Source: Halorubrum sp. GN11_10-6_MGM (GTDB lineage Archaea > Halobacteriota > Halobacteria > Halobacteriales > Haloferacaceae). Taken from it: a DNA stretch of 53,706 nt. A program made the translations under genes and the position numbers. The notes below the pieces were generated by a model that was not told where the DNA came from, ran no database searches, and was given only the letters and a program-made list of their open reading frames with translations. The DNA lies in NCBI RefSeq assembly GCF_005435165.1, contig NZ_SGUC01000019.1:1-53706 (forward strand), read 5' to 3'. Of this stretch, positions 9,224-24,627 are shown one piece after another; positions within the stretch are counted from its first letter, which is position 1, and every line of letters starts with the position of its first letter.

Positions 9224-9276
9224 TGTACGCTGTCATAGATTGCTGGTTACACCAATCATATGTAGGCGTGTCATAT
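9224..9276 (+). promoter_or_regulatory. promoter region of the DoeD-like aminotransferase gene
   Basis: Two related words, TGTACGCTGTCATA (9224-9237) and TGTAGGCGTGTCATA (9261-9275), flank a dyad TGGTTACACCA (9244-9254), with an AT-rich TATA-like stretch aatcatatg between. The arrangement suggests regulator binding close to the basal promoter, but the words only partly match the TGTA-N7-TACA dyads elsewhere in the island. Confidence 0.35.
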
Positions 9277-9286
9277 CGGTTGGATT

Positions 9287-10663
9287 ATGGCGGGACCGCC
9301 GATCCACGACCTACACTTCGCGGAGGAACCGAGCGTCGACCAAGTCCCCGGTCCGAACTCGCGACGCCTCCTCGACAGACAGCAGGAGATCGACAGCAGC
9401 GCCGTCGCGTACCCGAACGACATCCCGCTCGCGTTCGAGGAGGGGCGCGGCGCGACGCTGAAGGACGCCGACGGCAACGTCTTCCTTGACTTCTTCGCCG
9501 GCATCGGCGTGTACAACGTCGGCCACGCGAACCCCTACGTCAACGAGGGCGTCCACGAGCAGATCGACAAGCTCACCCACACCGTGGACTTCCCGACGGA
9601 GCCGCGCCTCGAACTCATCGACAAGCTCGACGAGATCGCCCCCGGTGACCTCGCCGGCAACAGTCGGTTCGTCTTCGGCGGCCCCACCGGCAGCGACGCC
9701 GTCGAGGCGTCGATCAAGCTCGCGAAGTACAACACGGGCGGCAACGGCCTGATCGCCTTCCGGAACTCCTACCACGGCGCGACGGCCGGCGCGATGAGCA
9801 TCACGGCCAACAAGAAGTTCAAGCAGCCCTACGGGCCGCTGCTGTCCGACGTGGTGCACGCGCCGTTCCCCTACCCGTTCCAGGAGGGGCGCGGCCCCGA
9901 GGAGTCGGTCGAGCACGCGCTCCGGGAGGTCAGGGCCATCGTCGAGGAGCCGTACGGCGGGCTCACGGACCCGGCGGGCATCTTCGTCGAGCCGATCCAG
10001 GGCGAGGGCGGCGTCGTCGCCCCGCCGGACGGGTTCCTCTCCGGGCTCCGCGAGATCGCCGACGAGAACGACCTGCCGCTGATGTTCGACGAGATCCAGG
10101 TGGGGATGGGCCGCACCGGCGAGTGGTGGGCCTCCGAGCACTACGACGTGACGCCGGACGTGATGACGACCGCGAAGGCGCTCGGCGGGAACGGCCAGCC
10201 GCTGTCGGGGACGATGTACCACGAGGACCTCGACACGTGGGGGCCGGGCGACCACGCGGGCACCTACCGGGGGCACGTCCCCGCGATGGTCGGCGGGCTC
10301 CGCGCGATCGAGTACATCCAGTCGCACGACCTGCTCGACCACGCGACCGAGGTCGGCGGGTGGATCCGCGACCGGCTCCACGACGCCGCCGAGGACGCGC
10401 CGGGCGTCGGGGAGGTCCGCGGGAAGGGGCTGTTCGTCGGCGCCGAGTTCGTGGACGCCGACGGCGACCCCGACTCCGACCGCGTCGACGCGATCCAGGA
10501 GTACTGTTACGAGCACGGCGTCCTCGTCTGGACCGCGGGCCAGTACGGGAACGTCCTCCGGCTGCTGCCGCCGCTCGTCTTAACGCAGAAGCAGGCCGAG
10601 GTCGGGACCGAGATCATCGCGGACGCGATCGAGGCGACCGCCGAGCTGGCGGTCGCCGAGTAG
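9287..10663 (+). CDS. class III aminotransferase, candidate L-2,4-diaminobutyrate transaminase (DoeD-like)
   Basis: A PLP-dependent fold-type I enzyme of 458 residues. Visible landmarks are the [17 protein letters not shown] cofactor loop, [15 protein letters not shown], the Asp motif [18 protein letters not shown], and the Schiff-base Lys in [15 protein letters not shown]. The C-terminal [15 protein letters not shown] resembles the GTFRGNQLAM segment of diaminobutyrate transaminases. In ectoine degradation this step converts diaminobutyrate to aspartate semialdehyde. The island context (ectoine-hydrolase-like gene, AOR, GDH, BCCT carrier) supports that, but GABA or another omega-amino acid is possible. 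The start is about 27 bases after an AT-rich box (9254-9262), suggesting a leaderless mRNA. Confidence 0.8.
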
Positions 10664-10719: not shown

Positions 10720-12387
10720 TTACGTCGGCAACGCGGCCTCGGGGACCGTGCCGTCGTCGTTCCACCCGCGCGCCTCGTAGTACGCGTCGATCGCGTCGTC
10801 GAGGCCGGGGAGCTCGTCCGCGTACGGGAGGCGGTCGTCGCCGCGGTCGATCCCGCGCCGGTTGTTGAAGTGCCGCTCAAGCGTCACGGTCCGGGCGCCC
10901 GCCGCGAGCAGCTCCTCGAAGTCGGCGTCGAACAGCAGCTCGTAGCGCTCCGGCGTCATGAAGTCGCGGGAGAACTTGCAGACGACGCCGCTGTCGTTGA
11001 GCGCCATCAGGTTCTCCCGTTCGACGAGCCGCTCGGCCTTCCCCTCGAACCCCGCCGGCTCCATCGCCTCGTCCTCCTCGACCAGCGGGTACTCGACCGA
11101 GTAGAACGTCGCGTACATGTGGTCGGCGCCGCGGTTCGCGACGGCGTACGAGAGCGCCTGTCCGTGGAGCAACCGCCCGTCGTGGGCCGCGAAGTCCATG
11201 TTCTTCACCGACCAGTTCCCGACTCCGAGGTCGTCGTGAATCCGGCCGATCCCCTCCGCGAGCCGGTCGCCGGCCCCGTCGCGGTGGGCGATCTTCTCGA
11301 CGAGGTCCCAGATCAGCTCGCGGTTGCCGAACTCGTCCTCGGCGGTGAGGTACGCGGCGATCGTGTTGCCCGCCGAAATCGCGTCGAGCCCGTACTCGTC
11401 GCACAGCTGGTTCGATTTCATCACGTCGACGATGTCGTCGACCCCCGAGTTCGAGCCGAACGCCATCGCGACCTCGAACTCGGGGCCCTCGGTCTCCACG
11501 CCGCGGGCCTCGTCGCGGGTGGGGAGCTTACAGGCGAACGCGCACGCCGAGCACGTCCCCTTCTTGTACTTCTTCTCCGCGACCGCGGCGCCGTTGATCC
11601 CCTCGACGCCCTCGAAGGACCGTTCGGAGAAGTAGTACGACGGGAGCCCGTCCATCTCGTTGGCTAGGTCCATCACCGCCACCGTCCCCTGCTCTTTCAT
11701 GATGTGGTCCTCGGTGGCCGCCTCGCGGTGGACGTCGTTCGCGGTCGCGTCGATCGAGACGTCGGGGGCCGAGTCCCCGTCGAACGTGACCGCCTTGACG
11801 TTCTTCGAGCCGAGGACCGCGCCCAGCCCGCCGCGGCCGAACGCCCGCTCCTCGGTCGTCATCACCGACGCGAACCGCACCTCGTTCTCGCCCGCGGGAC
11901 CGATCACGGCCGTCTGCTCCTTGGAGACGTCGCGTTCGTCCCGGAGGTACTCCGTCGTCTCCGGGACGGTCGCACCGGCGAGCTCCGGCACCGACTCGAA
12001 CTCGACGCCGTCGTCGCGAACGTGGACGACGACCAGCTCGTCGCTCGCGCCGGCGAGTTCGATCGCCCCGTACCCCGTCGCTGCGAGGTGTCGGGACACG
12101 AACCCGCCCGCGTTCGACGAGAGGAGCCCGTCCGTCAGCGGCGAGAGCGCGGTGCAGTTCGTCCGGCCCGTGAAGCTCATCTGCGACGCCTGCATCGGCC
12201 CGGTGGTGAACACGGCGCGGTTCTCGGCGCCGAGCGGGTCCGCGTCGAACGGGATCCGCTCGTGAGCGAGCCGCGTCGCCACGCCTCGCCCGCCGATGTA
12301 TCGCTCCTGAATCCCCGTGATGTCCGTCTCGGACGCGGTCCGCTCCCCGACGTCGATCGACAGCAGCGGTCCGGTGCTGTGTAACAT
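10720..12387 (-). CDS. tungsten-type aldehyde:ferredoxin oxidoreductase (AOR) family protein
   Basis: Oxidises an aldehyde to a carboxylic acid, passing electrons to ferredoxin through a tungstopterin and a [4Fe-4S] cluster. The 555-residue protein has the family N-terminus (YIGGRGVATRLA, FTTGPMQASQMSFTGR), the CxxCxxxC cluster ligands in GTCSACAFACKLP, and the distant fourth Cys in NDSGVVCKFSRDF. It is somewhat shorter than the Pyrococcus AOR (about 605). It is convergent with the DoeD-like aminotransferase and divergent from the ectoine-hydrolase-like gene. I infer aspartate semialdehyde as a possible substrate. A GGAGGG Shine-Dalgarno-like site precedes the ATG at 12387. Confidence 0.9.
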   Translation of the reverse strand: MLHSTGPLLSIDVGERTASETDITGIQERYIGGRGVATRLAHERIPFDADPLGAENRAVFTTGPMQASQMSFTGRTNCTALSPLTDGLLSSNAGGFVSRHLAATGYGAIELAGASDELVVVHVRDDGVEFESVPELAGATVPETTEYLRDERDVSKEQTAVIGPAGENEVRFASVMTTEERAFGRGGLGAVLGSKNVKAVTFDGDSAPDVSIDATANDVHREAATEDHIMKEQGTVAVMDLANEMDGLPSYYFSERSFEGVEGINGAAVAEKKYKKGTCSACAFACKLPTRDEARGVETEGPEFEVAMAFGSNSGVDDIVDVMKSNQLCDEYGLDAISAGNTIAAYLTAEDEFGNRELIWDLVEKIAHRDGAGDRLAEGIGRIHDDLGVGNWSVKNMDFAAHDGRLLHGQALSYAVANRGADHMYATFYSVEYPLVEEDEAMEPAGFEGKAERLVERENLMALNDSGVVCKFSRDFMTPERYELLFDADFEELLAAGARTVTLERHFNNRRGIDRGDDRLPYADELPGLDDAIDAYYEARGWNDDGTVPEAALPT

Positions 12388-12543
12388 ACGACTCCCTCCG
12401 TAGACGAGACACAAAAAACCGGGCCAAGCCGACGGATAGGTGTCCTCAATCTCTCTCGACCGCTCTCAGGGGGTACCCATCGAGCGCTTCCGGAGCGTCT
12501 GAGCGTCGCTTCGGGCCGAATTCCCGAGATGCGTGGCGAGAGT

Positions 12544-12584
12544 TGTACACAGTATCTGTTTGTAATGTACACGCTAAATTTATA
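12544..12584. promoter_or_regulatory. promoter/operator region between the AOR gene and the ectoine-hydrolase-like gene
   Basis: TGTACAC occurs twice (12544-12550 and 12566-12572), followed by a TATA-like box aaatttata (12576-12584) about 40 bases before the ATG at 12621. The GTACA/TGTAC words form a weak 26-base dyad. The position just upstream of the TATA box suits an activator or repressor site. Confidence 0.45.
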
Positions 12585-12620
12585 CGACTGGCAGTTCCCC
12601 TTCGTAGACGTCCTGTTACC

Positions 12621-13802
12621 ATGCCACGGGAACACATCTTCGACGAGGCCGAGTACGAGCGGCGAGTGGCTCGGACGAAAGAGCGGCTGCGCGAGCGGAA
12701 CCTCGACGCCATCGTCGTCGCCGATCCGGCGAACATGAACTACCTGACCGGCTACGACGGCTGGTCGTTTTACGTCCATCAGGCGGTCGTGGTCACGCCC
12801 GACCGCGACGAGCCGATCTGGATCGGCCGCGACATGGACGGCGACGGCGCGCGCGCGACGACGCACCTCGACGACGACAGCATCCGCGCGTACAGCGACG
12901 ACCACGTCCACTCGCCGCACGATCTCCACCCGATGGACTACGTCGCGGGCGTCCTCGACGAGCTCGGCGTCGCTGACGGCCGGATCGGCTTGGAGATGGA
13001 CGCCGCCTACTTCACCGCGAAGTCGTACACGCGACTTCAGGGGAACCTCCCGGACGCCGAGTTCGCGGACGCGACGCTGCTCGTCGGCTGGATACGGGTC
13101 AAGAAGTCGGAGCAGGAGCTGGAGTACATGCGGCAGGCCGCCCGCATCTCCGAGAACGCGATGCGGGCCGGCCTCGACGCCGTCGGCGAGGGCGTCCCCG
13201 AGTACGAGGTCGCCTCCGCCATCTATCAGCAGCTGATCGACGGCACCGACGAGTACGGCGGCGACTACCCGGCGATCGTCCCGCTGATGCCGTCGGGCGA
13301 CCACACCGGAACGCCCCACCTCACGTGGACGGACCGCGAGTTCGAGGACGGCGACCCGGTGATCATCGAACTCTCCGGCTGCCGGCATCGCTACCACTCG
13401 CCGCTGGCCCGGACGACGTTCGTGGGCGACCCCCCGACCGAGCTCCGGGAGACCGCGGACATCGTCGTCGAGGGGCTGGAGGCGGCGCTCGACGCCGCCG
13501 AGCCCGGCGTCAAGTGCGAGACCGTCGAGGAGGCGTGGCGGACCACGATCCAGCAGTACGGCCTCGAAAAGGAGGACCGCATCGGCTACTCGATGGGGCT
13601 CGGCTACCCGCCGGACTGGGGCGAGCACACCGCGAGCATCCGCCCCGGCGACGAGACGGTCCTCGAAGAGGACATGACGTTCCACATGATCCCCGGCATC
13701 TGGACCGACGAGATCGGCATGGAGATCAGCGAGACGTTCCACGTCACCGCCTCCGGCGCGGAGACGCTCGCCGAGTTCCCGCGCGAGCTGTTCACCGCCT
13801 GA
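12621..13802 (+). CDS. doeA: ectoine hydrolase-like M24 protein (DoeA/EutD family)
   Basis: Ectoine hydrolase opens the ectoine ring to N-acetyl-diaminobutyrate. This 393-residue protein has the creatinase N-domain (residues 1-160, with NYLTGYDGWSFYVHQ at 40-54) and a pita-bread domain. Ordinary M24 peptidases carry two metal-binding Asp in the D-x-G / D-x-x-R-T segment; here it reads IIELSGCRHRYHSPLARTTF (248-267), with Glu and His/Ser instead. The usual GHGIG is replaced by GYSMGLGYPPDWGEH (322-336). These creatinase-like changes are shared with DoeA/EutD hydrolases. The ATG at 12621 is preferred over the frame opening at 12543, which lies inside the promoter. Another amidinohydrolase is the alternative. 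Confidence 0.78.
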   Translation: MPREHIFDEAEYERRVARTKERLRERNLDAIVVADPANMNYLTGYDGWSFYVHQAVVVTPDRDEPIWIGRDMDGDGARATTHLDDDSIRAYSDDHVHSPHDLHPMDYVAGVLDELGVADGRIGLEMDAAYFTAKSYTRLQGNLPDAEFADATLLVGWIRVKKSEQELEYMRQAARISENAMRAGLDAVGEGVPEYEVASAIYQQLIDGTDEYGGDYPAIVPLMPSGDHTGTPHLTWTDREFEDGDPVIIELSGCRHRYHSPLARTTFVGDPPTELRETADIVVEGLEAALDAAEPGVKCETVEEAWRTTIQQYGLEKEDRIGYSMGLGYPPDWGEHTASIRPGDETVLEEDMTFHMIPGIWTDEIGMEISETFHVTASGAETLAEFPRELFTA

Positions 13803-13945: not shown

Positions 13946-15229
13946 ATGAGCACGACACCAACCGTCGACGACGAAGCAGATGAATCGCCCGAATCCACGC
14001 TCGCGACCGCGCGCAAGCAGCTCGAACGCGCGGCGACCAACACCGACGTCGACCCCGCCATCGTCGAGCGTCTCAAACACCCGACGCGCGTCCAGCAGGT
14101 CTCCGTCCCGCTCGAACGCGAGGACGGCACCGTCGAGGTGTTCACCGGCTACCGCGCCCAGCACGACGACGTCCGCGGACCGTACAAGGGGGGGCTCCGC
14201 TACCACCCGGAGGTCACCGCCGCGGAGTGTACGGGGCTCTCGATGTGGATGACCTGGAAGTGCGCCGTGATGGACCTCCCCTTCGGCGGCGGGAAGGGGG
14301 GGATCGCCGTCGACCCCAAGTCGCTGACCGACGACGAGCGCGAGCGGCTCACTCGGCGCTTCGCGGAGGAGCTCCGCGACGTCGTCGGGCCGACGAAGGA
14401 CGTGCCCGCGCCGGACATGGGGACGGACGCCCAGACGATGGCGTGGTTCATGGACGCCTACTCGATGCAGCAGGGCGAGACGATCCCGGGCGTCGTCACC
14501 GGGAAGCCGCCCGTCATCGGCGGGTCGTACGGCCGCGAGGCGGCGCCGGGGCGGTCGACCGCCATCGCCGCGCGCGAGGCGATCGATTACTACGGCCGCG
14601 ACCTCGCCGAGACGACCGTCGCGGTACAGGGGTTCGGCTCCGTCGGCGCGAACGCGGCCCGGCTGCTCGACGACTGGGGCGCGACGGTCGTCGCCGTGAG
14701 CGACGTGAACGGGGCGATCTACGACCCCGACGGGCTCGACACGCGCGCGGTTCCCACCCACGAGGAGGAGCCCGAGGCGGTCCTCACCCACGAGGCGCCC
14801 TCGACGCTGTCGAACGAGGCGGTCCTCGAACTCGACGTCGACGTGCTGATCCCCGCGGCCGTCGGCAACGTGATCACCGCGAACAACGCCGACGCGGTCG
14901 ACGCCGACATCGTGGTCGAGGGGGCGAACGGGCCGACGACGTTCGCCGCGGACGAGATCCTTGCGGAGAACGGCGTGGCGGTGATCCCCGACATCCTCGC
15001 GAACGCCGGCGGCGTCACCGTCTCGTACTTCGAGTGGCTCCAGGACATCAACCGGCGGACGTGGTCGCTGGAGCGCGTCAACGAGGAGCTCGAAGAGCAG
15101 ATGCTGTCCGCGTGGAACGACGTGCGGGCCGAGGTCGACGAGCGCGACCTCCCGTGGCGCGACGCCGCCTACGTGGTCGCGCTGTCGCGGATCGCCGAGG
15201 CGAAGGGCGCGCGCGGGCTCTGGCCGTAG
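13946..15229 (+). CDS. gdhB: Glu/Leu/Phe/Val family dehydrogenase, probable glutamate dehydrogenase
   Basis: Interconverts glutamate and 2-oxoglutarate plus ammonia. The 427-residue enzyme shows the substrate domain motif [10 protein letters not shown] (residues 82-91), the catalytic-lysine region [17 protein letters not shown], and the Rossmann motif [15 protein letters not shown]. Length and motifs are those of archaeal hexameric GDH. It follows the ectoine-hydrolase-like gene on the same strand after 143 bases of tandem repeats. In a catabolic island with two aminotransferases it would release ammonia and regenerate the 2-oxoglutarate acceptor. Confidence 0.92.
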
Positions 15230-15293: not shown

Positions 15294-16280
15294 TCAGTCG
15301 TCAGCGTCCGGCGTGACGACCGCGTTCTCCAACTCCCCGCCCTCGTCGAGCGCAGCGACGTTCCCCGCGACGATGTCGGCCAGCCGGTCCCAGTGCTTGG
15401 GCGTGTGGCCGCCCGTGTGCGGCGTGATGAGGCAGTTCTCCAACTCCCAGAGGACGTGGTCCGGCGGGAGCGGCTCGGGGTCGGTGACGTCGAGCGCGGC
15501 GCCGCGGATGCCCTCGGTCTGGAGCGCCGAGACGAGCGCGTCGGTGTCGACGAGGCCGCCGCGGGCCGCGTTGACGACGACCGCATCCGGGGGGAGCGTC
15601 GCCAGTTCGGCCTCCCCGACCATCCCGCGGGTCAGGTCGTTGAGCGGGCACGCGAGCACGACGTAGTCGCTGCGGGCGAACGCCGCGTGGACATCGTCGT
15701 CGTCGAAACCGAGCACCTCGTCGGTCGGGCCGCCCTTCTCCGGCGTGTACCGGATCCCGATCGTCTCCACTTCGAACCCGTCGAGCCGCTGGACGATCGC
15801 CTGTCCGATCGAGCCGAGCCCCACGACGGTCACCGTGCTGTCGGTGAACTCCCGCGACTGGAAGTGACGCCACTCGCCGTTCGCCTTCCGGCGCATCCCC
15901 TCGTGGAGGTTTCGCGCGAACACGAGCATGTTGGCGATCGACTGCTCGGCGATTCCCGGCGCGTGGATGCCGCCCGCGTTCGTCACTGTGACGCCGCGCT
16001 CGCGGAGCGCGTCCGTCGGCACGTGGTCGGTGCCGGCGAAGGTGCACGCGAACAGCTCCAGCCGGTCGGCGCGCTCGACGAGGCCGGCGTCGAGCGTGAT
16101 TCCGGTCACGGCGCGGGCCCTCGGCACGAGGTCGCGTTCCTCCGCCGGCGTCCGCGCGAGCGCGACCGTTCGGTCCGGGAGTCGCTCCCGGAGCGCGTCC
16201 GCGTACGAGGCCATCGACAGGCCCTCGGTTCCCTCGCGCAACACGACGACGTCCGGATCGGCGGTCTGGTGTGAGCTCAT
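15294..16280 (-). CDS. D-2-hydroxyacid dehydrogenase
   Basis: An NAD(P)-dependent oxidoreductase of 328 residues. The nucleotide-binding motif VVGLGSIGQAI lies near the middle. The catalytic Arg is in VVNAARGGLVD, the Glu in DVTDPEPLPPD and the His in LITPHTGGHTPKHW. The N-terminal substrate domain has the family TFAGTDHVPTDAL segment. The specific substrate cannot be read from the sequence; glycerate, lactate or a branched 2-ketoacid are all possible. It is divergent from the M20 amidohydrolase gene and shares a control region with two inverted repeats, which suggests co-regulation with the catabolic island. Confidence 0.88.
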   Translation of the reverse strand: MSSHQTADPDVVVLREGTEGLSMASYADALRERLPDRTVALARTPAEERDLVPRARAVTGITLDAGLVERADRLELFACTFAGTDHVPTDALRERGVTVTNAGGIHAPGIAEQSIANMLVFARNLHEGMRRKANGEWRHFQSREFTDSTVTVVGLGSIGQAIVQRLDGFEVETIGIRYTPEKGGPTDEVLGFDDDDVHAAFARSDYVVLACPLNDLTRGMVGEAELATLPPDAVVVNAARGGLVDTDALVSALQTEGIRGAALDVTDPEPLPPDHVLWELENCLITPHTGGHTPKHWDRLADIVAGNVAALDEGGELENAVVTPDADD

Positions 16281-16343: not shown

Positions 16344-16373
16344 GTGTATCTGACGTACACGACAATCGTGTAC
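16344..16373. promoter_or_regulatory. double inverted-repeat operator between the divergent dehydrogenase and M20 genes
   Basis: Two overlapping dyads occur: GTGTA-TCTGACG-TACAC (16344-16360) and the perfect 8+3+8 palindrome GTACACGA-CAA-TCGTGTAC (16355-16373). An AT-rich tgtacaattaag (16369-16380), about 27 bases before the ATG at 16406, can serve as the TATA box of the M20 gene. One or two dimeric regulators could bind here and control both directions. Confidence 0.6.
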
Positions 16374-16405
16374 AATTAAGGGGGTCGAGTGTGAGGCCCT
16401 CTCGC

Positions 16406-17716
16406 ATGAACGAACCGATCCGCGATCGGCTCGCCAGCGTCCGTCGGCGGTTCCACCGCCACCCGGAGCCCGCGTGGCGCGAGTTTCTCACGACCGCGAC
16501 GCTCGTCGAAGAGATCCGGTCGATCGGCGTCGACGAACTCGCCATCGGGCCGGACGCGTACGACCCGGCCGACCGCATGGCGGTCCCCGACGCGGACCTG
16601 GAACCGTGGATCGAGCGCGCCCGCGACCGCGGCGCGGACGACGAACTGCTCGAGCGCATGACCGGCGGCAACACGGGCGCCGTCGCCGTGCTCGACCGCG
16701 GCGAGGGGCCCGCGATCGGGCTTCGCGTCGACATCGACGGGCTGTTCATCGAGGAGTCGACCGACGCCGACCACGACCCGGTCGACGAGGGGTTCCGGTC
16801 GGAGATCGACGGGACGATGCACGCCTGCGGTCACGACGTCCACATGACGTGGGGGCTCGCGGTCCTCGAAGCGATCGCCGAGAGCGACTTCTCCGGGCGG
16901 CTGGTCGTCTTCTTCCAGCCGGCCGAGGAGACGGGCGGCGGCGGCCACCCGATGGCGGAGAGCCGGTTCGCGGACGGTCTCGACTACCTCCTCGCCGTCC
17001 ACGTCGGCCTCGACCACCCGACGGGCGAGGTCGTCGCGGGGATCGAGAAGCCGCTGGCGATGGCGCACTTGGACGCGACGTTCGAGGGCACCTCCGCGCA
17101 CGCCGGGAAGGCGCCCAACGAGGGCGACAACGCGATGCAGGCGATGGGGACGGCGATCGTGAACGCGTACGGCATCGCCCGCCACGCCGACGGGATGACC
17201 CGCGTGAACGTCGGCACGGCCGAGGCCGGCACCGCGAGCAACGTCATCGCCGAGCGGGCGGAACTCGAGGCCGAGGCCCGCGGGGAGACGACCGAGCTGA
17301 TGGAGTACATGAAAGAGCGGTTCGAGACCACCGTGCGCTCCGCCGCGGCGATGCACGGCTGTCGCGGGACCGTCGACGTGGTGAGCGAGTCGCCGCGCGC
17401 GGACAGCGACCCGGAGCTACAGGCGCTCGTGACCGACGTCGCCGAGGGCGTCGACGGCGTCGACGACGTGCTCCCGGCGGCGGACTTCGGCGCGAGCGAG
17501 GACGCGACCTTCCTGATGGAGCGCGTCCAGGAGGCGGGCGGGCTGGCGACGTACCTCATCGTCGGCACGGACCACCCGACGAGCCACCACACCCCCACCT
17601 TCGACGTGGACGAGCGGAGCATCCGGCACGGCGTCGACGTGCTCGTGGGCGCCGTCCGCGATCTCGAACGCAGACACCCCGTTCCGCGGGCCGACGCCCT
17701 CGGAGACGGGCGGTAG
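16406..17716 (+). CDS. M20-family amidohydrolase, AbgA-like (candidate N-acetyl-diaminobutyrate deacetylase)
   Basis: A 436-residue zinc amidohydrolase with the M20 signatures RFHRHPEPAWREF (residues 14-26), LRVDIDGLFI, GTMHACGHDVHMTW (metal His/Asp), QPAEETGGGG (catalytic Glu) and a C-terminal HHTPTFDVDE with the last metal His. The long insert between HPEP and GLRVD, and the length of 436, match the p-aminobenzoyl-glutamate hydrolase A type. It is the first gene of an operon with threonine ammonia-lyase (8-base gap). Deacetylation of the ectoine-derived N-acetyl-diaminobutyrate is proposed from context, as no EutE/DoeB-type aspartoacylase homologue is nearby. Confidence 0.85.
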   Translation: MNEPIRDRLASVRRRFHRHPEPAWREFLTTATLVEEIRSIGVDELAIGPDAYDPADRMAVPDADLEPWIERARDRGADDELLERMTGGNTGAVAVLDRGEGPAIGLRVDIDGLFIEESTDADHDPVDEGFRSEIDGTMHACGHDVHMTWGLAVLEAIAESDFSGRLVVFFQPAEETGGGGHPMAESRFADGLDYLLAVHVGLDHPTGEVVAGIEKPLAMAHLDATFEGTSAHAGKAPNEGDNAMQAMGTAIVNAYGIARHADGMTRVNVGTAEAGTASNVIAERAELEAEARGETTELMEYMKERFETTVRSAAAMHGCRGTVDVVSESPRADSDPELQALVTDVAEGVDGVDDVLPAADFGASEDATFLMERVQEAGGLATYLIVGTDHPTSHHTPTFDVDERSIRHGVDVLVGAVRDLERRHPVPRADALGDGR

Positions 17717-17724
17717 TCCTCCCA

Positions 17725-18999
17725 ATGACCGACGGAGGCTCCGGCGCGGACGGTCGGGGGGCGGGATCGCCCCGCGTCACGCGCGCCGACGTCGAGGACG
17801 CGCGCGACCGGCTCGCCGACGTCGCGCATCGGACGCCGGTCGACACCTCGCGGACCTTCGCCGCCATGAGCGGGGCCGCGTCGCTGGGGCTCAAACTCGA
17901 GTCCTTCCAACGGACGGGGTCGTTCAAGATCCGAGGGGCCTACAACGCGATGGCACAGCTCTCCGCGGCCGACCGCGAGGCCGGTGTGATCACCGCCAGC
18001 GCGGGGAACCACGCGCAGGGCGTGGCGCTCGCGGGCGAGATCCTCGGCGTCGACGCGACCATCGTCGTCCCCGAAGTGACGCCGGCGGCGAAGATCGCGG
18101 CGACGAGGGGATACGGCGCCACCGTGCTCGTCGAGGGGGACATCTACGAGCGCTCGTACGAGTTCGCCGCGGACCGCGCCGAGCGGACGGGCGAGACCTT
18201 CGTCCACCCCTTCGACGACGAGGCGGTGGTGGCCGGACAGGGGACGGTCGGACTCGAACTGCTGGAACAGTACCCCGCGATGGACACCGTCCTCGTCTCG
18301 ATCGGCGGCGGCGGGCTGATATCCGGGATCGGGACAGCCCTCGCGGCCGCCGACCGAGACGTCCGCGTCGTGGGCGTCCAGCCCGAGGGGGCCGCCCACG
18401 CCCCGCCGTCGCTGGCGGCCGGCGAGGTCCGGCCGCTCGACGACGTGGACACCGTCGCCGAGGGGATCGCCGACACGCGGATGTCGGAGACCACCTTCGA
18501 AATCGCGAGCGAGGTCGTCGACGACGTGGTGACCGTCTCCGACCGCGAGATCGCAGCCGCCGTGACGCTGCTGGCCGAGCGGGAGAAGGTGGTCGCCGAG
18601 GGCGCGGGTGCCGCGCCGCTGGCCGCCGCGCTCTCGGACGCGCCGGATCTGGCCGACGCTCACCCGGCCGTCGTCGTCTCGGGCGCAAACGTGAACATCA
18701 CCGAGCACGCCGAACTCGCGCGGACCGGGCTCTTCGAACTGGGCCGTCGCGCCCGGGCGCGCCTCGCGCTCGCCTCGTGGCCGGCACGGGCCCAGACCGT
18801 CATCGAGACGGTGGCGGCCGAAGGCGCCGAACTGGAGTCCTTCGAGCGCGCCGACCCGCGTCCGGTCGACCACCCGAATCGCACGCCGGCGGAGATCGGG
18901 ATCGAAGGCCGCGGCGCCGACCATCTGGCGGGGGTGTTGACGGCGCTCGACGAACTGGACGGCGTCTCGGTCGTCGAGCGGTCGGTCAGCGAAGAGTGA
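17725..18999 (+). CDS. threonine ammonia-lyase / EutB-like PLP enzyme with C-terminal ACT domain
   Basis: A fold-type II PLP enzyme of 424 residues. The Schiff-base Lys lies in RTGSFKIRGAYNA (residues 61-73), the Asn/His stretch is TASAGNHAQG, and the phosphate-binding glycine loop is SIGGGGLISGIG. A C-terminal domain from about residue 340 looks like an ACT-type regulatory module (IGIEGRGADHLAGVLTALDE). It usually deaminates threonine or serine to 2-oxobutyrate or pyruvate. Ectoine-utilisation operons of bacteria carry a homologue, EutB, thought to act on a hydroxyectoine intermediate. Here it is translationally close to the M20 amidohydrolase. Biosynthetic IlvA is the alternative. Confidence 0.85.
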   Translation: MTDGGSGADGRGAGSPRVTRADVEDARDRLADVAHRTPVDTSRTFAAMSGAASLGLKLESFQRTGSFKIRGAYNAMAQLSAADREAGVITASAGNHAQGVALAGEILGVDATIVVPEVTPAAKIAATRGYGATVLVEGDIYERSYEFAADRAERTGETFVHPFDDEAVVAGQGTVGLELLEQYPAMDTVLVSIGGGGLISGIGTALAAADRDVRVVGVQPEGAAHAPPSLAAGEVRPLDDVDTVAEGIADTRMSETTFEIASEVVDDVVTVSDREIAAAVTLLAEREKVVAEGAGAAPLAAALSDAPDLADAHPAVVVSGANVNITEHAELARTGLFELGRRARARLALASWPARAQTVIETVAAEGAELESFERADPRPVDHPNRTPAEIGIEGRGADHLAGVLTALDELDGVSVVERSVSEE

Positions 19000-19041: not shown

Positions 19042-20403
19042 TCAGGTGGCCGGCGCGCTGGCGCTGACCGCCTCGATCGCGTCGAGGAAGATCCCCGTCC
19101 CGAGCGCGATCTCGCGTTCCGTCGCGTCGAGCGGCGGGAGCAGCCGGATCGTCTTCTTCCCGCAGCCGAGCGTCAGCAGGCCGCGGTCGAGCGCCGCCTC
19201 GATCACGGCCGCGCGCCGGTCCGCGCTGTCGAACTCCACCGCGAGCATCAGCCCCTTCCCCCGAACGTCGACGACGGTGTCGGGCGCGTCGTCGCGGAGT
19301 ATCTCCTTCGCCTGTCGGCCGCGGCGGGTCGCGTTCGCCAGCAGGTCGTGTTCCTCGATCGCCTCCAGCGTGAACGTGCCCATCATCGATCCGAGAATGT
19401 CACCGCCGCCGAACGTCGACCCGAGGCGGTTCTTCTCGCTGGGGAACACCTCCGACCGGGAAATCGTCGCGCCGACGCGGAGCGCCTTCGCGGCCGCGAT
19501 GACGTCCGGTTCGATCGCGTAGTGGTCCGACGCCCAGATCTCACCGGTCCGGCCGACGCCCGACTGGATCTCGTCGACGACGACCGGGATGTCGTACTCG
19601 TCGGTGACGGCAGCCACTTCGTCCATGAACGTCTCGCTGGGGAACCGGTAGCCGCCGACCCCTTGAACGGGTTCGACCGTCAGGAAGGCGATCTCCGCGG
19701 GGTCGACGTGGCCGCCCTCGGGCGCGAGCATGTTCCGCAGCCGGGAGCCGCCGCCCGCGAAGAAGCCGCAGTCGCAGCTCTCGGCGTCGCACTCGCGGTC
19801 CGCGCAGAACGGGACCGTCTCGATCCCGCTGATCTCGGGGTACTGGCGGGTGTACACGTCCTTCGACTTGGTCAGCGAGAGGGTTCCGAGCGTCCGGCCG
19901 TGGAAGCTCCCGTTGAACGCCACGCCGTACTTCGCCGGGGCGCGGTGGTCGTGGGTGATCTTCATCGCGTTCTCCATCGCCTCGGCCCCGGAGTTCGAGA
20001 GGAAGACGGTGTCTATCCCGTAGTGGCTGGAGACGTCGGTGAGCCGGTCCATGAGGTGACTCGAACCGGGGAAGTCGGCCTCCTCGGGCGTCGGTCCAGA
20101 CCCGAAGTACATGTCTTGGCCGGCGATCTTCATCGGCTCGACGAGGTCGAACTCCCGCAGCTTCGAGAGCACCTTCTCGTTGTTGTAGCCGAGCGGGGCC
20201 GCGCCGATGTGACAGGTAAAATCGAGCAGGACGTTGCCGTCGACGTCCGTGACGAACGGGCCGTCGGCCTCCCGGGTCACGTCCCAGACGAACTCGTGGG
20301 AGTACTCGCTCGGCGCCGAGTGCGACTGGTGGAAGTCGACCCACCGCTGCGCGTTCGGGCCGGGGAGCGCGTCCGCGGCCGGTTCGGCCGTATCCCTATC
20401 CAT
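19042..20403 (-). CDS. class III aminotransferase, 4-aminobutyrate aminotransferase-like
   Basis: A 453-residue PLP enzyme with SNSGAEAMENAMK (cofactor loop), FNGSFHGRTLGTLSLT, VVDEIQSGVGRTGEIWA (Asp motif), the Schiff-base Lys in AAAKALRVGATIS, and STFGGGDILG near the C-terminal substrate region. It belongs to the GABA/ornithine-type archaeal aminotransferases. An unusual cysteine-rich loop (CADRECDAESCDC) lies around residue 200. It is convergent with the threonine ammonia-lyase gene (42-base gap). The start codon is 9 bases from a perfect dyad that overlaps the expected TATA box, suggesting a leaderless, repressible transcript. The substrate is unknown. Confidence 0.85.
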   Translation of the reverse strand: MDRDTAEPAADALPGPNAQRWVDFHQSHSAPSEYSHEFVWDVTREADGPFVTDVDGNVLLDFTCHIGAAPLGYNNEKVLSKLREFDLVEPMKIAGQDMYFGSGPTPEEADFPGSSHLMDRLTDVSSHYGIDTVFLSNSGAEAMENAMKITHDHRAPAKYGVAFNGSFHGRTLGTLSLTKSKDVYTRQYPEISGIETVPFCADRECDAESCDCGFFAGGGSRLRNMLAPEGGHVDPAEIAFLTVEPVQGVGGYRFPSETFMDEVAAVTDEYDIPVVVDEIQSGVGRTGEIWASDHYAIEPDVIAAAKALRVGATISRSEVFPSEKNRLGSTFGGGDILGSMMGTFTLEAIEEHDLLANATRRGRQAKEILRDDAPDTVVDVRGKGLMLAVEFDSADRRAAVIEAALDRGLLTLGCGKKTIRLLPPLDATEREIALGTGIFLDAIEAVSASAPAT

Positions 20404-20472: not shown

Positions 20473-22170
20473 TCAGTCGTCGTCGGACCCGGCGGACTCG
20501 ACCGGAGCGGACGTGGTATCGGTCTTCTCGCTCGCCCCGTACAGCACGGTCTCGTCTTGGAGGAGCACTTGGTCGTAGTGCTTCCCGAAGTCTTTGATCA
20601 GCGACACCATCGCGAGGAAGCAGACGAACGCGAACGGCGTGCCGGTGATGATCGCGGCCTGCTGGAGCGTGTTCGCGCTGCCGGTGCCGCCGAGGATCAT
20701 CAGGATCGCCGCGGTCATCCCGAGGACGACGCCCCAGAAGATCCGGTTGATGGTCGACGGCTCCGCCTTCCCGCCGGTGGTCATCATCGAGACGGCCAGC
20801 GTCGAGGAGTCGGCCGACGTGACGAAGAACGTCGTCACGAGGATCATGAACGCGTAGATCAACACGGAGCCGATCGGGATCGTCATCGACGCCCCGCCGA
20901 GGTTCAGGGTGAAGTTCAGCGCCTCGAAGAGGATGAACCCGGACACCTCGGGGCCGGCCTCGCCGGCGATCACCGCGCCGAAGTCGGCGATCCCGTTGTG
21001 CTGCGCCCACACCGCCGTGCCGCCGACGAACGTGAACCACGGGATGGTGGCGCCGGAGGTCGCGACGATCCCCGTGAACGCGACCTCGCGGACGGTCCGT
21101 CCCTTGGAGATGCGCGCGATGAACAGCCCCGCGAACGGCGACCACGAGAGCGCCCACGCCCAGTAGAACACCGTCCACGCGTTCATCCAGCCGGTCGCGC
21201 CCGAGTCGCCCGCGCCCATCGGCCCGGCGCCGGTGAAGAGGCTCATCGAGACGAACTCGCTGATCATGCCGCCGAACGCCTGCGTCCCGAGCAGCACGAG
21301 GAACAGCGTCGGGCCGACGACGAACGTCGCGATCATGAGCACGACGAAGAGGATCATGTTGAAGTTCGAGAGCCGGCGGATCCCCTTGTCGACCCCGAGC
21401 ACCATCGAGGTGGTGAACAGCAGGGTCATCATGGTGACGACGAGCAGGATACCCAGATCGCCCATGTTGATACCCCACTGGTAGTCGAGGCCGGTGACGA
21501 ACTGGCTCCCGATGAAGCCGAGCGAGGTGGCCACGCCGCCGATCGTCGCGAAGACGGCGAGGATGTCGACGACCTTCGCGGCCGGGCCGTCGAGGTTGTC
21601 GGCGCCGAGGATCGGCGTCAGCGCCGAGGAGACGCGCAGCGGGACGTTCTCGTAGTTGTACGCGAAGTAGCCGATCGCGATGCCCATGATCGTGAACACC
21701 GCGAGCTGCGGGAGCGCCCAGTGGAACAGCGTCTGCTGGACGGCGACCGTCATCGCCTCCGCGGTGCCCCCTTCGACGCCGCTGAACAGCGGCGAGGGGT
21801 TGTTGTAGTAGAACAGCGCCTCGGTCGGGCCCCAGAAGACGACGCCCGCCGCGAACCCCGCCGAGTAGAGCATGGCGAAGAAAGAGAGGAAGCTGTACTC
21901 GGGCGGTTCGTCGCCGAGCTTAATGCCGCCCCACGGACCGACGATGAGGAAGAGCAGGAACAGCACGATCAGGAAGACGATGAGCAGCATCGCCCAGTTG
22001 AAGGCGCCGAGCATCTGCGAGTTCAGCGACGAGATGCCGCTCTCGACGGCCGACGGGCTGATGAAGAACGCCGCGATCACGCCCAGCGTCAACAGCGCGC
22101 CGAACGCGAAGACGATGGGGTCGATCTCCTCGCGGAACTCCTCGATCACCCCCGACTCGGAGCCGCTCAC
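20473..22170 (-). CDS. BCCT-family compatible-solute transporter
   Basis: Imports betaine, carnitine, choline, ectoine or similar solutes, usually with Na+ or H+. The 565-residue protein has about twelve membrane segments and the family signature in TM8 (VFYWAWALSWSPFAGLFIAR followed by ISKGRTVREV). The glycine-rich TM3-type segment FSAGFAAGVVFWGPTE-like is present (YSAGFAAGVVFWGPTEALFY spans it). The N-terminus is short and the C-terminus is an acidic tail. The gene starts with GTG at 22170. It sits next to the aminotransferase at the edge of the catabolic island, so ectoine or a related solute is a natural cargo, though betaine cannot be excluded. Confidence 0.92.
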   Translation of the reverse strand: MSGSESGVIEEFREEIDPIVFAFGALLTLGVIAAFFISPSAVESGISSLNSQMLGAFNWAMLLIVFLIVLFLLFLIVGPWGGIKLGDEPPEYSFLSFFAMLYSAGFAAGVVFWGPTEALFYYNNPSPLFSGVEGGTAEAMTVAVQQTLFHWALPQLAVFTIMGIAIGYFAYNYENVPLRVSSALTPILGADNLDGPAAKVVDILAVFATIGGVATSLGFIGSQFVTGLDYQWGINMGDLGILLVVTMMTLLFTTSMVLGVDKGIRRLSNFNMILFVVLMIATFVVGPTLFLVLLGTQAFGGMISEFVSMSLFTGAGPMGAGDSGATGWMNAWTVFYWAWALSWSPFAGLFIARISKGRTVREVAFTGIVATSGATIPWFTFVGGTAVWAQHNGIADFGAVIAGEAGPEVSGFILFEALNFTLNLGGASMTIPIGSVLIYAFMILVTTFFVTSADSSTLAVSMMTTGGKAEPSTINRIFWGVVLGMTAAILMILGGTGSANTLQQAAIITGTPFAFVCFLAMVSLIKDFGKHYDQVLLQDETVLYGASEKTDTTSAPVESAGSDDD

Positions 22171-22553: not shown

Positions 22554-23201
22554 TCAGTTCGTTAATTCTTCGAGCGTGCGCTCGTGGGAAGTGGCGCTCT
22601 CCGTCAGCTTCTCGGCGAACTCGTCGACCCGGTCTTTGATCTCCTCGCCGGCCTCCTCGGGAGAAAAGGAGTCCGACATCGTCAGCAAGCGGACGAACGC
22701 CCGGAGTTCCTCGTCGGTGAGCTCGGCGAACTCGTCGTCTTCGAGCTTCGCGACGACCTCGTCGACGTCGATCTGGCCGACCGGATCGACGTTGAACTCC
22801 ACGTTGACCATGCGGTAGTTCGAGCCGGCGAGCTGCTGCTCCGCCTTGCCGACCCCCTCCGAGAGCATGTCCTTGAACGGCGTGTGGTATCCCATGGTGC
22901 CGAGGTGGAGGAACGCGAGCATGTCCGTGATCCCCTGCGTGTACGCCTCGCGGTCCTCGTCGTTCGGGTCGAACACCGTCTTTCGGTCGCGCTCCTCTAA
23001 ACACTCGAAGAGAATGCTGAAATCTAAGATTGCGTTCCTGACCCGGCGCCGAATCCGGTTTCGCTTCTGTTTCCGGGAGTGGTCCGTGTAATCCGTCTTG
23101 CGACCGAGCAGAAAGTCGCGGTCGGAGGGCGTCAAGATTCCGCGAGGCCGGTCCGACTCGGCCGCAGCCTCCAGCGACTCCGGCACGTCGTTCTGGCTCA
23201 T
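22554..23201 (-). CDS. conserved haloarchaeal-type hypothetical protein
   Basis: A 215-residue soluble, acidic protein with no recognised catalytic motif. The N-terminal part reads RGILTPSDRDFLLGRKTDYT, then a basic helix with KQKRNRIRRRVRNAILDFS (about residues 43-61), followed by predicted helices to an acidic C-terminus. The basic helix suggests nucleic-acid contact, and the RGILT/DRDFL beginning resembles haloarchaeal regulators or domain-of-unknown-function proteins, but I cannot name it. The ATG at 23201 is preferred over a longer Arg-rich extension. Confidence 0.7.
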   Translation of the reverse strand: MSQNDVPESLEAAAESDRPRGILTPSDRDFLLGRKTDYTDHSRKQKRNRIRRRVRNAILDFSILFECLEERDRKTVFDPNDEDREAYTQGITDMLAFLHLGTMGYHTPFKDMLSEGVGKAEQQLAGSNYRMVNVEFNVDPVGQIDVDEVVAKLEDDEFAELTDEELRAFVRLLTMSDSFSPEEAGEEIKDRVDEFAEKLTESATSHERTLEELTN

Positions 23202-23346: not shown

Positions 23347-24627
23347 TCACGGCCGCCGCCGCGACAGCTCGACGAACGCGTCCGACAGCAGCGCGACACC
23401 GATCCCGAGGCTCTCTTCGTCGACGTCGAACGTCGGCGTGTGGTGGCTCGTCGGGTGGTCCGTGCCGACGAGGACGTACGACGCCAGTCCCCCGGCGTCT
23501 TGGACCCGTTTCATCAGGTACGTGCCGTCCTCGCTCACGCCGAACTCCTCGGTCGGGACCACGCTCTCGACCCCGTCGACGTCCCACGCCACGTTGCCGA
23601 TGACCTCCCGCAGCGCCGGGTGGCTGTCGACGCACGGCGACTCGCTTATCAGCTGGGGGGTGACGTCGCAGTCGTGGAGCTCGGCGGCGGCGTACAGCGT
23701 CCGTTCGAGCTCGTCGCGCATGTACGTCATCAGCGGGGTCGTCTCGCCGCGCACCTCGGCGTCGATCGTCACCTCCTCGGCGATCACGTTGCTCGCGGAC
23801 CCCCCCTCGATCCGGCCGACGTTCACCCGCGTCGCGCCGTCTCGGTGGCGGGCGATCCCGTACGCGTTCTGGATCGCGGCCGCGGCGGCCTGCATCGCGT
23901 TCGCGCCCTCGTTGGGCGCCTTCCCGGCGTGGGCGCTCGCCCCCTCGAAGGTGGCCGTCAGGTGCGCCATCGCCAAGGGACTCTCCACCCCGGCGACGAT
24001 CTCGCCCGTGGGGTGTCCGAGCCCGATGTGGAGCGCGAACAGGTAGTCGACGTCGTCGAGGTGACCGCTCTCGGCCATCGCTTTCCCGCCCCCGGAGATC
24101 TCCTCGGCGGGCTGGAAGAACACCTTGAGCGTTCCCTCGAACTCGCTGTTCGCTATCGACTCCAGCGTGCCGAGCGCGATCGCGAGGTGCGCGTCGTGGC
24201 CGCAGGCGTGCATGTGGCCGTCGTGTTCGGACCGGAACCCCTCCGCCGCCGGTCGGTGGTCGGACTCCGCCGACTCTCGGATCGAGATCCCGTCGAGGTC
24301 GACGCGCAGGCCGATACACGGCCCCTCGCCTCGGGCGAGCGTCGCGACGACGCCCGTGTGACCGCCCGCGATCCGTTCGAGGAGGTCGTCGTCGACCCCG
24401 GCGCGACGGGCGCGGGCGAGCCACGGCCGGATCTCGTCGTCCGCCGGGACGGCCATGCGCTCGTCGGTCGCGAGCGCGTCGCGGCCGACGGCGATCTCGT
24501 CGACGCCGATGCGTTCGAGCTCCTCGACGACGCGGGCGGTCGTCCGGAACTCGCACCATCCCGGCTCCGGGTGGCGGTGGAACGCACGCCGGAGCTCGGT
24601 CAGTCTGGATCGCGCGTCGGTGGACAT
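23347..24627 (-). CDS. M20-family amidohydrolase, second AbgA-like paralogue
   Basis: The 426-residue product is clearly paralogous to the M20 protein at 16406: RAFHRHPEPGWCEF, LRVDLDGISI, GHMHACGHDAHLAI, QPAEEISGGG and HHTPTFDVDEE occur in the same order and spacing. It should bind one or two zinc ions and hydrolyse an amide bond in an aromatic-acyl-glutamate or N-acyl-amino acid. Two copies 6 kb apart suggest either different acyl substrates or alpha/gamma acetyl isomers of the same compound. The start at 24627 lies about 30 bases from the AT-poor divergent Cdc48 promoter. Confidence 0.85.
   Translation of the reverse strand: MSTDARSRLTELRRAFHRHPEPGWCEFRTTARVVEELERIGVDEIAVGRDALATDERMAVPADDEIRPWLARARRAGVDDDLLERIAGGHTGVVATLARGEGPCIGLRVDLDGISIRESAESDHRPAAEGFRSEHDGHMHACGHDAHLAIALGTLESIANSEFEGTLKVFFQPAEEISGGGKAMAESGHLDDVDYLFALHIGLGHPTGEIVAGVESPLAMAHLTATFEGASAHAGKAPNEGANAMQAAAAAIQNAYGIARHRDGATRVNVGRIEGGSASNVIAEEVTIDAEVRGETTPLMTYMRDELERTLYAAAELHDCDVTPQLISESPCVDSHPALREVIGNVAWDVDGVESVVPTEEFGVSEDGTYLMKRVQDAGGLASYVLVGTDHPTSHHTPTFDVDEESLGIGVALLSDAFVELSRRRP

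Follow-up and report, generated by a model that had tools for sequence, protein, structure and literature searches.

A candidate ferredoxin-linked aldehyde oxidoreductase for the aspartate-semialdehyde step in a putative ectoine-degradation island of Halorubrum

Gene content of the island

We analyzed a 53,706-nt stretch of DNA from Halorubrum sp. GN11_10-6_MGM (the window, contig C98 in our numbering of the host genome), in which an AOR-family gene lies among genes resembling those of bacterial ectoine breakdown. The island genes, in their order along the window, are as follows.

9287..10663, plus strand: AT1, class-III omega-transaminase (Aminotran_3), candidate DABA transaminase (DoeD role)
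10720..12387, minus strand: AOR, predicted AOR-family tungsten/molybdenum-pterin Fe4S4 aldehyde oxidoreductase of 555 aa (Pfam AFOR_N/AFOR_C, 1AOR match, purifying selection)
12621..13802, plus strand: DoeA-like ectoine hydrolase (M24; TIGR02993, 6TWK)
13946..15229, plus strand: glutamate dehydrogenase GdhB (NF041398, 785 bits, above the cut-off of 620)
15294..16280, minus strand: D-2-hydroxyacid dehydrogenase
16391..17716, plus strand: M20 amidohydrolase, candidate N-acetyl-DABA deacetylase (DoeB role; TIGR01891, 249 bits)
17725..18999, plus strand: EutB/IlvA-like ammonia-lyase (TIGR01127, 374 bits, cut-off 379; EutB models under cut-off)
19042..20403, minus strand: AT2, the other class-III transaminase, also present in almost every island seen
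20473..22170, minus strand: BCCT transporter, likely for ectoine uptake (PF02028, 471 bits)
22554..23201, minus strand: f8, conserved island-associated protein of 215 aa with a basic N-terminal segment, found in 24 of the loci compared
23347..24627, minus strand: a further M20 amidohydrolase, sharing 62% identity with that at 16391-17716

The DoeA product resembled the solved ectoine hydrolase DoeA (6TWK) over its full length (E 6e-114) and was 55% identical to a Priestia DoeA that lies in an ectoine-type cluster; on TIGR02993 it scored 456 bits, against a cut-off of 613. AT1 matched diaminobutyrate/GABA/ornithine-type transaminase models, every one under its cut-off, and was 28-30% identical to bacterial DoeD. 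The M20 protein encoded at 16391-17716 gave 102 bits on the DoeB2 model, for which the cut-off is 550. The ammonia-lyase scored on the threo-3-hydroxyaspartate lyase and EutB models, and all models of hydroxyectoine enzymes remained under their cut-offs. Islands with DoeA are frequent in haloarchaea: at a threshold of E 1e-100, DoeA was matched in 136 of the 392 genomes of the order.

The AOR gene and its product

The AOR open reading frame is intact, starts with ATG at 12387 on the minus strand and encodes 555 aa; an alternative TTG-started frame reaching 12414 was also listed and is not needed. The Pfam domains AFOR_N (212 bits) and AFOR_C (266 bits) span the full length of the product, and the top solved relative was the Pyrococcus furiosus AOR (1AOR), with an E value of 9e-75 that improved to 1.8e-100 with the family profile. 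The window AOR belongs to the AOR/WOR family. The residues expected to bind the cluster were located as follows.

11530..11553, minus strand: CxxCxxxC Fe4S4 ligands C279/C282/C286 (codon positions computed from the ATG at 12387)
10975..10980, minus strand: C470, the fourth cysteine of the cluster, directly before K471 (alignment of subfamily AORs)

An earlier note on this DNA had described an AOR with an intact CxxCxxxC motif between a transaminase and a ring-opening hydrolase, and this description held: C279, C282 and C286 are present, and AT1 and DoeA flank the gene. The three residues and C470 did not vary across 102 subfamily AORs. K471 was a lysine in 30/30 AT1-linked AORs and in 52/72 other members of the subfamily, which is no more than suggestive; apart from K471, the positions that differed between AT1-linked and other AORs were uninformative. 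The AOR mechanism is reported to use the second-shell residues Thr243, Glu313, Tyr427 and His448, in P. furiosus numbering (PMC12096430). Three of the four are retained in the window AOR, as T235, E305 and H423 for Thr243, Glu313 and His448, and Tyr427 is replaced by His402 both here and in every subfamily member. The same Tyr-to-His change has been reported for the characterized AOR Cf (PMC12096430).

Comparison with nine relatives gave dN/dS values of 0.11-0.28, and the AOR is therefore under purifying selection. The host genome carries three AOR-family genes, of which only the one in the window matched the window AOR protein at E 1e-100 or better. A model for the tungstate-binding protein gave only a below-cut-off match, and the AlphaFold model of the AOR (mean pLDDT 56, with a poor C-terminal half) was too weak for use. 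The metal (W or Mo), the electron acceptor and the substrate of the enzyme are inferred.

Among solved enzymes, the window AOR is closest to P. furiosus AOR (AOR sensu stricto), with which it shares full-length homology, the four cluster cysteines and the second-shell Thr, Glu and His. The P. furiosus enzyme differs in its length of 605 aa and in its Tyr427, whereas the window AOR has 555 aa and His402 and is paired with transaminases and hydrolases. The haloarchaeal tungsten aldehyde oxidoreductase WOR83 of Haloferax volcanii (9Q1T) is of the same superfamily but of a different subfamily, and P. furiosus AOR outscored it against the window AOR.

NAD-dependent aldehyde dehydrogenases in the host genome and in other islands

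A search of the host genome contigs recovered no Aldedh-family gene in the window. The five such genes of the host all lie on other contigs, C142, C200 (two), C179 and C115, in agreement with the earlier claim that the island holds no NAD-dependent aldehyde dehydrogenase (ALDH). They comprise four unlinked NAD ALDHs and ProA. One of the NAD ALDHs, on C179, is a clear SSADH (763 bits, cut-off 521) with 39% identity to Paracoccus DoeC. Bacterial DoeC/Ssd is itself SSADH-related, and deletion of doeC in Halomonas elongata abolishes growth on ectoine (PMC3187862, PMC5924519).

In other genomes an SSADH-type NAD ALDH was found in the island itself. It adjoins or closely neighbours AT1 in G039, G040 and G042 (same genus as the AOR-bearing G041) and in G308, G461, G250, G313 and G300. 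It lies within the island but further from AT1 in G248 and G316, and a 60-61% relative adjoins DoeA in G333 and G397. No island carrying both the AOR and the SSADH-type ALDH was found, although the numbers are too small for significance alone. We abandoned the proposal that both enzymes take up one and the same slot: the AOR of G041 lies between AT1 and DoeA and the ALDH of G042 between RidA and AT1. Most Natrialbaceae islands (L159-L178) have AT1 and neither AOR nor ALDH nearby, so the aldehyde step can be done in trans. On a Priestia plasmid (L181), genes for an M20 protein, a homoserine dehydrogenase and an ALDH accompany DoeA, which suggests an alternative fate of aspartate semialdehyde in that cluster.

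Linkage of AOR and AT1 across haloarchaea

Comparison of coordinates over an order-wide sample placed an AOR beside AT1 in at least 28 genomes. The ectoine islands in which the two genes adjoin belong to at least ten named genera (Halorubrum, Haloparvum, Halobaculum, Halogranum, Haloferax, Haloprofundus, Haladaptatus, Halorussus, Halomarina and Halopiger). Members linked to AT1 are dispersed across the AOR tree, and a single clade of them was rejected (p-AU 1.8e-63); the AOR-AT1 pairing has therefore arisen or broken up repeatedly. At least 10 changes of linkage were counted on the tree, compared to a shuffled mean of 26, with gains of linkage indistinguishable from losses. On two plasmids of Haladaptatus, the position next to AT1 and RidA is taken by AORs of different lineages, 76% and 68% identical to the window AOR. 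The AOR is placed as in an operon in Halogranum and in Haladaptatus, where AOR, doeA and gdhB run in the same direction with short gaps.

The same subfamily also occurs in other settings. G127 and G116 have a 61%-identical AOR together with an AT1 paralogue, M20 and f8, away from DoeA, and the island of G106 has AT1 and DoeA with no AOR nearby. AORs 92% identical to that of the window were recovered from H. lipolyticum and Halorubrum sp. CSM-61 (L189, L191), and DoeA was not found in these two carriers. Further neighbours of subfamily members were agmatinase with a class-III transaminase, acyl-CoA synthetase with thiolase, and ABC transporter genes. The AORs without DoeA and the varied neighbourhoods imply that the substrate range may exceed aspartate semialdehyde.

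The earlier note had proposed to check the phylogeny and neighbours of the AOR subfamily, and had taken a consistent association with unrelated aldehyde pathways as evidence against a role in the ectoine pathway. The result was divided. The non-monophyly of the AT1-linked AORs favours that role and the 92%-identical AORs in genomes where DoeA was not found count against it; agmatine, acyl-CoA and ABC-transporter genes do stand beside part of the subfamily, and the link to AT1 recurs in at least ten genera.

Two further observations were made on these loci. A gene for a zinc-type oxidoreductase precedes the 92%-identical AORs of L189 and L191. In L267, L213, L204 and L271, subfamily AORs have agmatinase, class-III transaminase or Lrp-regulator genes as neighbours, possibly a setting of polyamine aldehyde oxidation.

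Promoter regions and a shared repeat

The AOR and doeA genes are transcribed divergently in the window, and the intervening region contains a direct repeat that recurs, in weaker form, upstream of two other island genes.

12388..12620, no strand: divergent AOR/doeA promoter region of 233 bp
12544..12572, plus strand: perfect operator-like direct repeat TGTACAC-N15-TGTACAC, with 63 bp between its centre and the start of doeA and 171 bp to that of the AOR
9224..9252, plus strand: weaker copy with 2 mismatches, 49 bp ahead of AT1 (in other genera likewise at -48)
16346..16374, minus strand: weaker copy with 2 mismatches, between the D-2-hydroxyacid dehydrogenase and M20 amidohydrolase genes (same -46 position in other islands)

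In most Halorubrum islands an intergenic region of about 226-236 bp separates the divergent AOR and doeA genes. In other genera it is AT1 and the AOR that diverge, and doeA and gdhB sometimes lie behind the AOR on the same strand, separated by short gaps. The repeat, TGTMCAC-N15-TGTACAC with a 22-bp period, precedes island genes in numerous haloarchaeal genera, at distances of about 65 bp (doeA), 48 bp (AT1) and 46 bp (M20). Island loci totalling 868 kb contained 36 matches to it, of which 34 lay upstream of genes, and non-island AOR loci totalling 625 kb contained 1; some near-palindromic sites were counted on both strands. The window itself has 12 matches at two or fewer mismatches vs 3.9 in shuffles, and at the same threshold the repeat was absent from the examined flanks of the five ALDH-family genes of the host.

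No consistent AOR-proximal site, that is, a repeat at a fixed distance from the AOR, was found across the loci. A site near -60 of the AOR is present in some loci only (L192, L210, L214, L264 and L273), with low scores in L210 and L264, and in Halorubrum the distance of the repeat is set by doeA (63 bp) and not by the AOR (171 bp). The motif was derived from these same loci, and the island operator is for this reason put forward as a hypothesis: the repeat is a candidate operator of a regulator, which may also control the AOR itself.

Discussion

Taken with the flanking genes, the AOR suggests a route for ectoine breakdown in which each step has a candidate in the island. Ectoine would be imported by the BCCT transporter and its ring opened by DoeA to give N-acetyl-DABA, from which an M20 amidohydrolase would remove the acetyl group. 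AT1 would then transfer the gamma-amino group to 2-oxoglutarate, yielding aspartate beta-semialdehyde, and the AOR would oxidize this to aspartate with reduction of ferredoxin. Glutamate dehydrogenase would recycle the glutamate made by the transaminase and so regenerate 2-oxoglutarate.

We are fairly confident that the AOR is the aldehyde-oxidizing part of the island, because its pairing with AT1 is repeated and non-monophyletic, an SSADH-type ALDH is present instead in other islands, and the promoters that bear the repeat are shared. That the enzyme is a ferredoxin-type tungsten aldehyde oxidoreductase carrying out the DoeC step of ectoine catabolism is the reading we favour, with some reserve. 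Aspartate semialdehyde is its likeliest substrate, and on balance we think that the aldehyde is mainly this one and that ferredoxin is the acceptor.

These lines of evidence lend partial support to the earlier suggestion that the AOR replaces DoeC, against which stand the four unlinked NAD ALDHs of the host. The related objection, that a DoeC might be encoded elsewhere, is weakened and not rejected, since those four enzymes and ProA exist but none has the repeat, at two or fewer mismatches, in the flanks examined. The claim of a new role for AORs was too strong, because FOR of P. furiosus has already been proposed to oxidize glutaric semialdehyde, a precedent for a semialdehyde role (PMC12096430). 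FOR (1B25/1B4N) is also of the AOR family, but the window AOR is less homologous to it than to AOR, and its organism and pathway are different.

An unlikely but reasonable alternative is that the AOR works in the ectoine pathway on another aldehyde. Its substrate would be 3-hydroxy-aspartate semialdehyde derived from hydroxyectoine, or else omega-amino aldehydes of many kinds produced by class-III transaminases, and aspartate semialdehyde would be handled by the AOR jointly with other enzymes. The scores of the island ammonia-lyase on the threo-3-hydroxyaspartate lyase and EutB models fit this proposal, as do the subfamily AORs beside class-III transaminases in agmatine/putrescine settings and the retention of the same AOR lineage in genomes where DoeA was not found. 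It accords less well with the hydroxyectoine enzyme models, all under their cut-offs, and with the ALDH that replaces the AOR elsewhere, which is SSADH-type, as is bacterial DoeC.

Still less probable, in our view, is that the AOR is a general aldehyde scavenger that lies nearby by chance, with the DoeC step left to an unlinked NAD ALDH such as the C179 SSADH. The score of that enzyme and its identity to Paracoccus DoeC make it a credible candidate, most Natrialbaceae islands have neither enzyme, and non-ectoine neighbourhoods are common in the AOR subfamily. A chance position is difficult to reconcile with the repeated, non-monophyletic AOR-AT1 pairing, the promoter regions common to the AOR and doeA/AT1, the operon-like AOR of Haladaptatus and Halogranum, and flanks of the host ALDH-family genes in which the repeat was not seen. 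Finally, a cluster in which DoeA, M20 and the transaminases act on some other cyclic or acylated diamino acid, and the AOR on the matching aldehyde, is very improbable: the DoeA, DoeB2 and EutB models are under cut-off, the archaeal clusters were termed provisional in PMC13188858, and the two M20 genes and the 2-hydroxyacid dehydrogenase lie outside the bacterial pathway, but DoeA is like the solved ectoine hydrolase over its full length and close to Priestia DoeA, and the BCCT, transaminase and GDH genes fit ectoine.

The preferred assignment, aspartate semialdehyde oxidation by the AOR, would match the reaction proposed for DoeC/Ssd of H. elongata and Ruegeria pomeroyi (aspartate semialdehyde to aspartate) and its place after the transaminase, and the window AOR is encoded with doeA and a transaminase, as is doeC. 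DoeC/Ssd has the NAD-dependent aldehyde dehydrogenase fold, whereas the window AOR has AOR domains of an unrelated fold; it is not DoeC by fold, and is a functional analogue at most. If the assignment is correct, the same metabolic step has undergone non-orthologous displacement between a ferredoxin-linked and an NAD-linked enzyme, an orphan subfamily of haloarchaeal tungsten enzymes gains a likely physiological substrate and pathway, and an AOR acts in a pathway from which no such enzyme has yet been reported. The choice of electron carrier also matters, since the energy yield of growth on ectoine in brines depends on it.

The ability to consume ectoine was for a long time believed to be confined to Proteobacteria (PMC5924519). 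In 2026, putative ectoine clusters with peptidase, aminotransferase and BCCT genes were reported from Halobacteria and termed provisional (PMC13188858). Those EutD clusters and the window island have DoeA/EutD, a peptidase/amidohydrolase, aminotransferases and BCCT in common, and the main text there mentions neither a ferredoxin enzyme nor an archaeal aldehyde step. The AOR, if it acts as proposed, would supply the missing oxidation step for these clusters. A wider generalization, on which we are evenly divided, is that ectoine degradation in haloarchaea, many of which are presumably aerobes, proceeds through a tungsten enzyme, linked to ferredoxin, as aspartate-semialdehyde oxidase, and that the halobacterial AOR subfamily was recruited several times as a partner of class-III omega-transaminases, for ectoine and for agmatine/putrescine, with an NAD ALDH in its place elsewhere.

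Other features of the islands

The f8 protein, present in most islands, has an N-terminal basic segment (ILTPSDR...KKQKRNRIRRR). Its orthologue gave no Pfam or NCBIfam match, and its AlphaFold model (mean pLDDT 43) was too weak for use; f8 is a possible regulator. A 1050-aa FAD-oxidase/Fe-S protein with FAD-oxidase, 4Fe-4S and CCG domains (L050:13285-16428) occurs in many islands and is absent from the window. Two nearly identical matches, CGTCRACAACGTTGAATTCGGTTGTACAC, lie outside the island at C137:13957 and C190:47135 of the host (L284, L289) and are probably a repeated element.
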